This document shows, one piece after another, positions 33,369-36,166 of a stretch of 36,166 bases of DNA; the first letter of the stretch is position 1, and each line of letters opens with the position of its first letter. Location: NCBI RefSeq assembly GCF_002006795.1, contig NZ_MVDN01000006.1, forward strand, positions 25,547 through 61,712. Direction: 5' to 3'. The notes beneath the pieces were generated by a model. The model made no database searches, was not told the DNA's origin, and saw only the letters and a list, made by a program, of their open reading frames with translations. The translations under genes were made by a program, and so were the position numbers. This DNA is from Wohlfahrtiimonas populi (GTDB lineage: Bacteria; Pseudomonadota; Gammaproteobacteria; Cardiobacteriales; Wohlfahrtiimonadaceae).

Positions 33369-33914
33369 CTAAAATTTAAGAAAATATGATGGTGAAATAA
33401 AATAATCCATAGGCACATCATGCGATTGCCGCATCAATACTTCATTCACTAGCTGAAAATCCCAACCAACACCAATCAATATCACATCATCCTGCAAAGG
33501 CCCTAAATAACAATCATAATAACCTTTGCCCATACCGATCCTAGTGCCTGTATGATCGATTGCAGTTAACGGTATAATAAAAGCTTCTGGTATAAAATCC
33601 ACAATAGCGGTTACTGGCTCTAAAATATTATATTGCCCTTTTTGCCATAAATTTGGATCTTCATAATTTACAAATACGAGCTCATCATTATTATTAATTT
33701 TTGGCAAAGCAATAACATCATGTGAAATATAATCCATCACACAATCTACAGAAATTTCATTTTGAATGGCTGAATAAATGGCGATCGAAGAAAATTTTTG
33801 AATAAATTCAACTAATTTTTCGTTCAACAGGGATTGATAATAATTAATGTATTCTGAATTAAGTGCTTTGCGTTTTGCAAGCATTTGATGACGAATTAGA
33901 GATTGCATTGTCAT
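33369..33914 (-). CDS. fau: 5-formyltetrahydrofolate cyclo-ligase (MTHFS)
   Basis: This ATP-dependent enzyme recycles 5-formyl-THF to methenyl-THF. The 181-residue protein has the N-terminal 'IRHQMLAKRKALN', 'ISVDCVMDYI', 'VIALPKIN', and the signature 'IPLTAIDHTGTRIGMGKGYYD', then 'GVGWDFQLV'. The family usually has Arg after GYYD or GFYD; here it is Cys (GYYDCYLG), which is mildly unusual. Start at 33914 or, two codons on, 33908. The gene begins 7 bases after the 3' end of 6S RNA, the typical gammaproteobacterial arrangement (ssrS-fau, formerly ygfA), so it is probably read from the 6S promoter. A terminator follows at once. Confidence 0.92.
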   Translation of the reverse strand: MTMQSLIRHQMLAKRKALNSEYINYYQSLLNEKLVEFIQKFSSIAIYSAIQNEISVDCVMDYISHDVIALPKINNNDELVFVNYEDPNLWQKGQYNILEPVTAIVDFIPEAFIIPLTAIDHTGTRIGMGKGYYDCYLGPLQDDVILIGVGWDFQLVNEVLMRQSHDVPMDYFISPSYFLKF

Positions 33915-33920
33915 AAGATA

Positions 33921-34114
33921 TAGAGTGGACTCCGAAGCACCGTTAGGTATACTTTACCCTTGAACCGAATGGTTCAAATGGATATAAGTTTAAGCACCTT
34001 AGGCTCCCGAAACAAGTCGGTATGCTCACTGGTACCTAGTAATATATCTTACGATATACTTAGGATCAAGGGGACTTAAGTATATTAAACACGTATACTT
34101 CAGAAATCCACCCA
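33921..34114 (-). ncRNA. ssrS: 6S RNA
   Basis: On the minus strand the conserved 6S elements appear in order. First is 5' GTGGATTTCTGAAG, which pairs with 3' CTTCGGAGTCCAC to form the terminal stem, with G-U pairs. Then come AGTCCCCTTGATCC, the bubble-flanking GGTACCAGTGAGCATACCG, the CGGGAGCC side, and the TTGAACC-ATTCGGTTCAAGG hairpin near the 3' half. 6S RNA mimics an open promoter and sequesters sigma-70 RNA polymerase in stationary phase. The length of about 194 nt is close to the usual 180-200. Ends are estimated from the terminal stem. A -10 TATACT at 34127-34122 lies 7-8 bases before the predicted 5' end. Confidence 0.93.
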
Positions 34115-34164: not shown

Positions 34165-34848
34165 TTACGCTTTGGCTAAAACTAGTGCCGTAATCCTATC
34201 TACCCCTGCATTTTTCAATGCTTGCGAAGCAAATTGCAATGTCTTACCTGTTGTTAAGACATCATCGACTAATAAAACATGCCCACTAATTTGATCGCAC
34301 TCAAAAGCATTACGGAGATTTGTTGCTCGTTCATACTTAGATAGGTTACTCTGAGGAATTGAAAATGCATGTTTATGCAACTTATCATACTCAACAGGTC
34401 GGTCAATCAAAGACTGCAAACTATTCACAACCTCCAACATATGATTGAATCCTCGCCCTGCCAATCGCACACGATCCACAGGCATCGGCACAATCCAATC
34501 AATCGTTTCTAATAAATCTTTATGCTCAATCAATACAGGTTCTATTAATGCTTTAATGACACGAACCATATGCATTTTATGATTAAACTTTAAACGAATA
34601 ATCGCATCACGCATTGCATGATGATAGTGATAACCAACAATATAATGATCAATTGGGTGAACATCCTCATTCAACTCACAAGGCAAACAATGACTGCCTG
34701 TCAACAACCCACCACAACACGATTCACAATAATTCCATTGCCGTTCAGTTTGAGCATAACAAGAATCGCATAGCACTGCATCATCCACAGATTGATGGCA
34801 AATGAAGCATTGCTCGGGATAAAGCACCTGAAATATACGTTTCAACAT
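34165..34848 (-). CDS. comF: ComF/GntX-family phosphoribosyltransferase-like protein
   Basis: A 227-residue protein with an N-terminal zinc-ribbon-like set of cysteines ('CFICHQSV', 'CDSCY', 'CESCCGG', 'CLPCEL') and a C-terminal phosphoribosyltransferase fold. 'HHAMRDAIIRLKFN', 'DWIVPMPVDRVRLAGRGFNH' and 'LLVDDVLTTGKTLQFA' (PRPP loop at 191-203) follow the ComF pattern. ComF acts in the cytoplasm in DNA uptake and transformation; in E. coli the related GntX/YhgH supports use of DNA as a nutrient. The gene starts one base after the Sel1-protein stop and so is in the same transcript. No other competence gene is present in the window. Confidence 0.9.
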   Translation of the reverse strand: MLKRIFQVLYPEQCFICHQSVDDAVLCDSCYAQTERQWNYCESCCGGLLTGSHCLPCELNEDVHPIDHYIVGYHYHHAMRDAIIRLKFNHKMHMVRVIKALIEPVLIEHKDLLETIDWIVPMPVDRVRLAGRGFNHMLEVVNSLQSLIDRPVEYDKLHKHAFSIPQSNLSKYERATNLRNAFECDQISGHVLLVDDVLTTGKTLQFASQALKNAGVDRITALVLAKA

Positions 34849-34849
34849 T

Positions 34850-35851
34850 TTAGAAATGTTTAACTTGAGAATAATCTGGAATTTTTAAACGTGTATCAGA
34901 ATCTTTTAATCGCAAAGGTAAATCAGGCTCAAATACATCAGGATTGATCGATTGCACTGCACGCACAACATCATTCACATGCACACTGTAACTATCCGCT
35001 AAGCTCTGAAATAATGGCAATAAAGACTCATCTATCTCCATTGCTTCCACAATTGGCACCGATCTTTCACCCAACATTCTGCGCGGCCTTAATATTTCAT
35101 CACTACTATATTTAGCCGAATTCAATAATGGACGATACAACGATGAACGATAAGAACTCATCATCAATGGGTAAGTTGTGAATAATGCACGATAACTTGG
35201 TGCTGTCGCTTGATTAGTATTCTCTTCTGTAATTTTTAGCACATCTTCATTTTTAATGATCGTCACTTCACCATCAGCTGAAATGCGCTCAATTTTTTCG
35301 ATGATTTTAGGCAATGGCGTTTCACGAGAAGCAATGCGAACATTATTGGGCAATAACCAACCCACAGCATATTCAAATTGTGCAAAATCATCCAAAATAG
35401 CTTCAGCCATTTTAGAACCCTCTTCTAGCTCTTGGGGTGAAACTTTTGTTGCCAATACATCACGATAAGCGACCAAATCACTTGCGCCATGGCGTGATGC
35501 AATCACAGCCCAAGCATAAGATTCCGCCATATTTTTATAGGTACCAATCCCTAATCTTGCCAATGTGGAATAGTTAAAAGCTGCATCAATATGCCCTGCT
35601 TTAGCAGAACTTAAATACAATTCTGCTGCTTTCACATAATCGCGCGGAATGCCTGTGCCTGTTTGATACATTGTCGCTAGATTATTCATGGCATCTACAT
35701 GCCCCAAATCCTCTAATTCTGTGAATAATCGATAAGCTTCCACATAATCTTGACGATCATAAGCACCCACAGCATCAGTGAAATTATCAGCAAAGCTAAC
35801 AGCATTGATCATGATAAGTAAAGCTAACGTTATTCTTAACATATGTGGCAA
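34850..35851 (-). CDS. Secreted Sel1-repeat protein with C-terminal FimV-like LysM-type domain
   Basis: The signal peptide 'MLRITLALLIMINAVSFA' (after a possible start three codons earlier) leads to Sel1/TPR-like repeats at about 35-145: 'YVEAYRLFTELEDLGHVDAM', 'NNLATMYQTGTGIPRDYVKA' and 'AAFNYSTLARLGIGTYKNMA'. A low-complexity middle region follows. The last 60 residues read 'LLPLFQSLADSYSVHVNDVV', 'RAVQSINPDVF' and 'LPLRLKDSDTRLKIPD'. The A-x-x-x-x-NPDxF....N/RLKx-G/D-x-x-L-xIP pattern is that of the FimV/LysM-like N-terminal domain, which binds peptidoglycan at the pole. No known protein of this exact layout comes to mind. A periplasmic scaffold or peptidoglycan-linked role is inference. 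The start overlaps the upstream gene by 16 bases. Confidence 0.8.
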   Translation of the reverse strand: MPHMLRITLALLIMINAVSFADNFTDAVGAYDRQDYVEAYRLFTELEDLGHVDAMNNLATMYQTGTGIPRDYVKAAELYLSSAKAGHIDAAFNYSTLARLGIGTYKNMAESYAWAVIASRHGASDLVAYRDVLATKVSPQELEEGSKMAEAILDDFAQFEYAVGWLLPNNVRIASRETPLPKIIEKIERISADGEVTIIKNEDVLKITEENTNQATAPSYRALFTTYPLMMSSYRSSLYRPLLNSAKYSSDEILRPRRMLGERSVPIVEAMEIDESLLPLFQSLADSYSVHVNDVVRAVQSINPDVFEPDLPLRLKDSDTRLKIPDYSQVKHF

Positions 35852-36166
35852 ATCATCATTAATGGATCATGGTCACTATAAGATCGATCACTATTGGAAT
35901 CTGTATTGATATGCGTAATCGAACTTTCTATATTTTCAATTTGGTCATTGTACAGAATATAATCTAAAAGAATGGGCTTTTTGTGATATTTGTAAGTGTA
36001 AATTTGATATTGCAATGCTTGATGAGCACTCTCAAATCCTTGAGAAGCCATCGCCTGCACAGTTTTACTTGCAAACGTATCATTCATATCGCCCATCACA
36101 AATAACGGCAAATCCATTAAATTATTCTCTTGAATATAATCTGCAATTAACTGCGCTTGCTTATTG
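35836..36166 (-). CDS. Endonuclease/exonuclease/phosphatase-family protein, C-terminal part (cut by window edge)
   Basis: The frame is open to base 36166, so the N-terminus lies beyond the right edge. The visible part begins 'NKQAQLIADYIQEN', then has 'DLPLFVMGDMND', the GDxN metal motif of the EEP fold. 'ILLDYILYND' is the D-Y/H-I/V-L segment, and 'SDRSYSDHDPLMM' is the C-terminal SDHxP motif with the catalytic His. An internal ATG at 36117 is not the true start. EEP proteins include DNA/RNA exonucleases, sphingomyelinases and phosphatases, so substrate cannot be set. It overlaps the Sel1-protein gene by 16 bases, consistent with one transcript. Confidence 0.82.
   Translation of the reverse strand, partial: NKQAQLIADYIQENNLMDLPLFVMGDMNDTFASKTVQAMASQGFESAHQALQYQIYTYKYHKKPILLDYILYNDQIENIESSITHINTDSNSDRSYSDHDPLMMICHIC

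Follow-up and report, generated by a model that had tools for sequence, protein, structure and literature searches.

In P. aeruginosa, localisation of the pilus machine requires both the AMIN domains of PilQ and the LysM domain of FimV, via peptidoglycan contacts (PMC5285504), and the FimV LysM domain of P. putida binds peptidoglycan sacculi (PMC12918733). Understanding of how the cell wall holds pilus machines in place is still incomplete. IltA (PA3978) of P. aeruginosa, a Sel1-repeat protein of the periplasm, binds the lytic transglycosylase MltF and inhibits it (PMC10746161). The window analysed here, a stretch of 36,166 nucleotides from Wohlfahrtiimonas populi, encodes a protein that combines Sel1 repeats with a C-terminal domain related to the FimV-type LysM (the Sel1-LysM protein, Table 1). 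Our main reading, to which we give a probability of roughly 45%, is that this protein is a Sel1 adaptor that is tethered to peptidoglycan and most likely works for the type IVa pilus machine and FimV. The family was sampled with 18 genomes, falling into groups g1 (Wohlfahrtiimonas, 6 genomes), g2 (1), g3 (2), and g4 (9). The gene is present in all nine genomes of g1, g2, and g3, and absent from 9/9 g4 genomes.

The open reading frame was first listed as 34850-35851 on the minus strand, with a TTG start at 35851. We prefer the ATG at 35842, which gives a product of 330 amino acids, because the orthologs align from that Met; the TTG would add three residues ahead of it. Inspected by eye, the N-terminus is hydrophobic, ends in ..NAVSFA-DN, and contains no lipobox Cys, which is consistent with a signal-peptidase I site. 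This hydrophobic N-terminus is kept in the orthologs, in agreement with the signal peptide proposed in the first-pass annotation.

Table 1 Features of the Sel1-LysM gene and its neighbours (positions in the window; the Sel1-LysM gene includes its stop codon).
Feature	Residues	Positions	Strand	Basis or remark
Sel1/FimV-type-LysM gene		34850..35842	-	orthologs in 9 genomes
Signal peptide, predicted cleavage after ..SFA	~1-20	35783..35842	-	by eye; orthologs share the hydrophobic N-terminus
Sel1 solenoid, helical hairpins	~21-157	35372..35782	-	Pfam Sel1, AF2 helices, fold matches
Variable linker	~158-250	35093..35371	-	ortholog alignment, AF2 model
LRPRR motif, just N-terminal to the tail domain	251-255	35078..35092	-	invariant in 8-ortholog alignment
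C-terminal FimV-type LysM-like domain	~268-329	34856..35041	-	TIGR03505, hhalign, reverse search, AF2
comF (TIGR00201 family)		34165..34848	-	starts 1 base past the Sel1-LysM gene stop
EEP (endonuclease/exonuclease/phosphatase) gene		35836..36165	-	5' end cut by the window

The same annotation had read Sel1-type repeats in the protein, and these were confirmed at the level of both sequence and fold. Pfam PF08238 (Sel1) matches residues 50-84 above its cut-off (E 4.3e-12) and is also found in all 8 orthologs. In the AlphaFold2 (AF2) model, residues 33-157 fold into helical hairpins, with pLDDT mostly 70-90, and this part resembles solved Sel1 structures with Z values of 14-19 (c5321, 18.8; LpnE, 17.2; AlgK, 16.6). 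The protein is thus a member of the Sel1-like repeat family, with PF08238 repeats arranged as an alpha solenoid. Weak NCBIfam matches to AlgK, ExoR, MerG, and MotX cover the Sel1 part and were not counted as membership of these families, and two loci, L022 and L023, were dropped as orthologs, their likeness being confined to the Sel1 repeats.

The linker that follows has a pLDDT mostly under 50, and it is longer in the g2 and g3 orthologs than in g1. Short motifs of the form IPxGFSxL are repeated in the g2 and g3 linkers (L007:655-2070, minus strand, and L009:1425-2768, plus strand) and are unrecognisable in those of Wohlfahrtiimonas; these repeats are possibly short binding motifs.

The last 60 residues had been described as FimV-like. 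NCBIfam TIGR03505 (FimV_core) matches the whole protein with an E value of 0.014 and its last 102 residues with 0.0026, both below the curated cut-off (17.5 bits for the tail vs 43.45). Single-sequence scores against the FimV HMM are weak (12-19 bits), the Sel1-LysM protein itself reaching 15.0 bits and an antisense decoy open reading frame in the window 13.0 bits; single-sequence significance alone is insufficient for a relationship of the tail to FimV. All 8 orthologs match TIGR03505, and the ortholog tail profile aligns with 30 FimV LysM domains with an hhalign probability of 95.9 and a score of 46.8, whereas the highest scores among column-shuffled controls (150 shuffles per side, 300 in total) were 21.8 and 19.5, and about 9-10.5 was obtained with other parts of the protein. 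A relationship of the tail to the FimV-type LysM domain, as the description had it, is thus well supported, strongly at the level of the family and weakly by single sequence. Against canonical LysM the tail profile scores 21.7, which is background level, whereas FimV LysM scores 41.5 against the same profile, which marks the tail as FimV-type. Pfam PF01476 (LysM) gave no match to the protein at E values up to 5, and a canonical LysM identity was rejected.

Modelled alone with AF2, the tail forms two helices with a pLDDT of about 86-88, flanked by strand bridges (bridge-helix-helix-bridge), an arrangement consistent with the LysM fold. Of the beta-alpha-alpha-beta fold named in the first-pass annotation, the model shows the two helices with strand bridges in the right order. 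Among solved structures, Foldseek and VIA-align gave no significant match to the tail model, LysM entries included. LysM entry 7r1l ranked second but was discounted (E 2.1, probability 0.11), and a profile search of PDB sequences with the tail matched nothing.

The two halves of the tail differ in conservation. The second half (NPxxF ... LxIP and the following segment) is the conserved one, with NPxxF ... LxIP invariant in all orthologs, suggesting that it is under constraint. The GETL/GDTL motif ahead of the first LysM helix is replaced by a longer, diverged segment. Peptidoglycan binding by the tail is what its homology would predict, and half of the LysM groove has diverged, so that binding may be altered or lost. 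The tail could then be of FimV-type LysM descent and act as a protein-interaction or structural cap, making the protein a plain Sel1 adaptor. We consider this improbable: the diverged first strand and helix, the low single-sequence scores, and a g3 tail only 21% identical to that of W. populi point towards it, but the invariant NPxxF ... LxIP half speaks against it.

When the tail profile was searched in reverse against 369 gammaproteobacterial genomes, nearly all of the listed matches that ranked next after the orthologs were FimV LysM domains. One exception is L116, a 420-residue frame in which an MltB-like lytic transglycosylase, and not a FimV protein, carries a FimV-type LysM towards its C-terminus. 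This enzyme bears on the main rival to the pilus adaptor, namely that the Sel1-LysM protein is an IltA-like regulator of a cell-wall hydrolase, which the LysM-like tail would bring to its substrate. Compartment and N-terminal Sel1 repeats are as in IltA, whose loss also changes sensitivity to a secretin (PMC10746161), and in L116 a FimV-type LysM was seen on an MltB-like enzyme. However, no hydrolase adjoins the Sel1-LysM gene, the co-loss with FimV described below is left unexplained, and the likeness to IltA is one of description. We regard a hydrolase regulator as unlikely, if less so than a non-binding tail.

The surroundings of the gene suggest another role. Seven bases (ATGTTAA) are shared between the end of the EEP gene and the start of the Sel1-LysM gene, and the order EEP, Sel1-LysM, comF is kept in the other g1 genomes. 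The co-transcription with comF and the EEP gene that had been annotated agrees with this tight order, but the linkage to comF is not universal: in g2 the Sel1-LysM gene lies beside the EEP gene and comF is on another contig. The protein could take part, in the envelope, in DNA uptake or DNA handling together with comF and the operon's nuclease genes, as the overlap, the 1-base gap to comF, and an exonuclease-I-like gene further upstream in the orthologs (named by eye) would suggest. Nevertheless, EEP and comF are adjacent in the g4 loci read, without the Sel1-LysM gene, and this arrangement, together with that of g2, indicates that these neighbours work without it. We rate this role as the least probable of those considered, and take the operon context (nuclease genes and comF) as a weaker guide to function because g2 and g4 break it.

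Two other features were seen around the operon. A 6S (SsrS) RNA occupies 33925-34109 on the minus strand (RF00013, 63.3 bits, E 2.3e-12), between comF and a gene at 33369-33914 that resembles, by eye, 5-formyltetrahydrofolate cyclo-ligase. Just past the window end at 36166, the contig has an N (L001, near 2814). Part of the EEP gene occurs twice, once to either side of this N, as would be expected of a scaffold join.

The W. larvae kbl006 ortholog is 86% identical to the W. populi protein and was the only true ortholog among the related loci checked in genome contigs. The domain order, Sel1 repeats and then a C-terminal FimV-type LysM, is conserved in three genera, and none of the matches listed from the 369 gammaproteobacterial genomes shows it elsewhere. 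The tail domain in its present form is absent from the other families of the order. Our literature search found no paper describing a protein with Sel1 repeats and a FimV LysM, in line with the earlier suggestion that this order was undescribed, and none on Wohlfahrtiimonas together with type IV pili. The domain is thus a known one, but its architecture here is new and, within the genomes sampled, confined to a single family.

The g3 block contains 11 of the window genes. Of these, 10 and 9 are retained in the two g4 genomes checked, and the Sel1-LysM gene alone is lacking in both. In the PilQ tree, g3 and g4 group together (support 99/95, f3 as outgroup; the tree holds part of the outgroup rows, several having been dropped by a motif filter), and the UbiD tree agrees weakly (84/77). 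Given this grouping, g4 most likely lost the gene.

FimV follows the same pattern. FimV_core matches split like the Sel1-LysM gene, with 9 in g1-g3 and 0 in g4, and FimV_Cterm gives the same split apart from g2, where the FimV frame is truncated by the stretch or the assembly; g4 is without FimV by both models. PilQ is retained in g4, with frames of 466-514 residues compared to 684-703 in g1-g3, one g4 gene being split over two contigs. Individually, the g4 PilQ frames (L169, L171, L223-L229) are about 200 residues shorter than L168 and L170. A Pfam scan detected AMIN in the PilQ proteins examined from g1 and g3, but in neither of the two examined from g4. Remodelling of the g4 pilus set goes further: a single PilT-family gene exceeds the cut-off, compared to two elsewhere. 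The Sel1-LysM gene was thus lost on the same lineage as FimV, and PilQ was shortened there too. FimV does not need the Sel1-LysM protein in general, since outgroup families with FimV lack the gene.

The FimV-type LysM and the co-loss with FimV and PilQ shortening make the protein best read as part of a pilus anchoring module. The exported protein would be a soluble periplasmic adaptor, whose C-terminal domain would dock on peptidoglycan, as its homology suggests, and whose N-terminal solenoid would hold a protein partner, as its fold suggests. The most likely client would be the type IVa pilus machine with the polar landmark FimV, the adaptor helping to position the PilQ/FimV assembly in the cell wall or to anchor it there; both the partner and the pilus role are inferred. 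We go no higher than the probability given above because a single co-loss on one branch underlies the pilus role, other genes may have been lost on that branch, and the g4 pilus set is more widely remodelled. The neighbours, nuclease genes and comF instead of pilus genes, also count against it. Somewhat more tentative is the narrower proposal of an accessory factor for the type IVa pilus machine that is specific to this family, is tethered to the cell wall, and has the FimV LysM reused on a Sel1 scaffold alongside FimV itself. A second compact protein with a FimV-type LysM, lost alongside FimV and PilQ shortening, is a specific and easily tested candidate for pilus anchoring.

Compared to known systems, the Sel1-LysM protein combines features of several. 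Canonical LysM proteins (PF01476) belong with it to the wider LysM superfamily, through the FimV LysM alignment, but differ in that the W. populi tail has neither a Pfam LysM match nor a score above background. AlgK, LpnE, and c5321 share the Sel1 fold (Z 16-19) but belong to different systems, and we know of no FimV-type LysM tail in them. IltA is likewise an exported Sel1-repeat protein with three N-terminal repeats, but no LysM-like tail is described for it in the part of the report used here (PMC10746161). FimV/HubP (TIGR03505 core) shares the periplasmic FimV-type LysM-like domain with NPxAF and LxIP, and the link to cell-wall anchoring. Nevertheless, FimV carries its LysM in an N-terminal periplasmic part, followed by a membrane helix, an acidic cytoplasmic part, and a C-terminal TPR-like domain, whereas in the Sel1-LysM protein the LysM-like domain is C-terminal behind the Sel1 repeats, FimV_Cterm has no match, and the whole protein looks periplasmic. 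A separate FimV gene is present in the same genome, and the Sel1-LysM protein was not assigned to FimV/HubP itself. The FimV-type LysM is a mobile module, as the Sel1-LysM protein shows.
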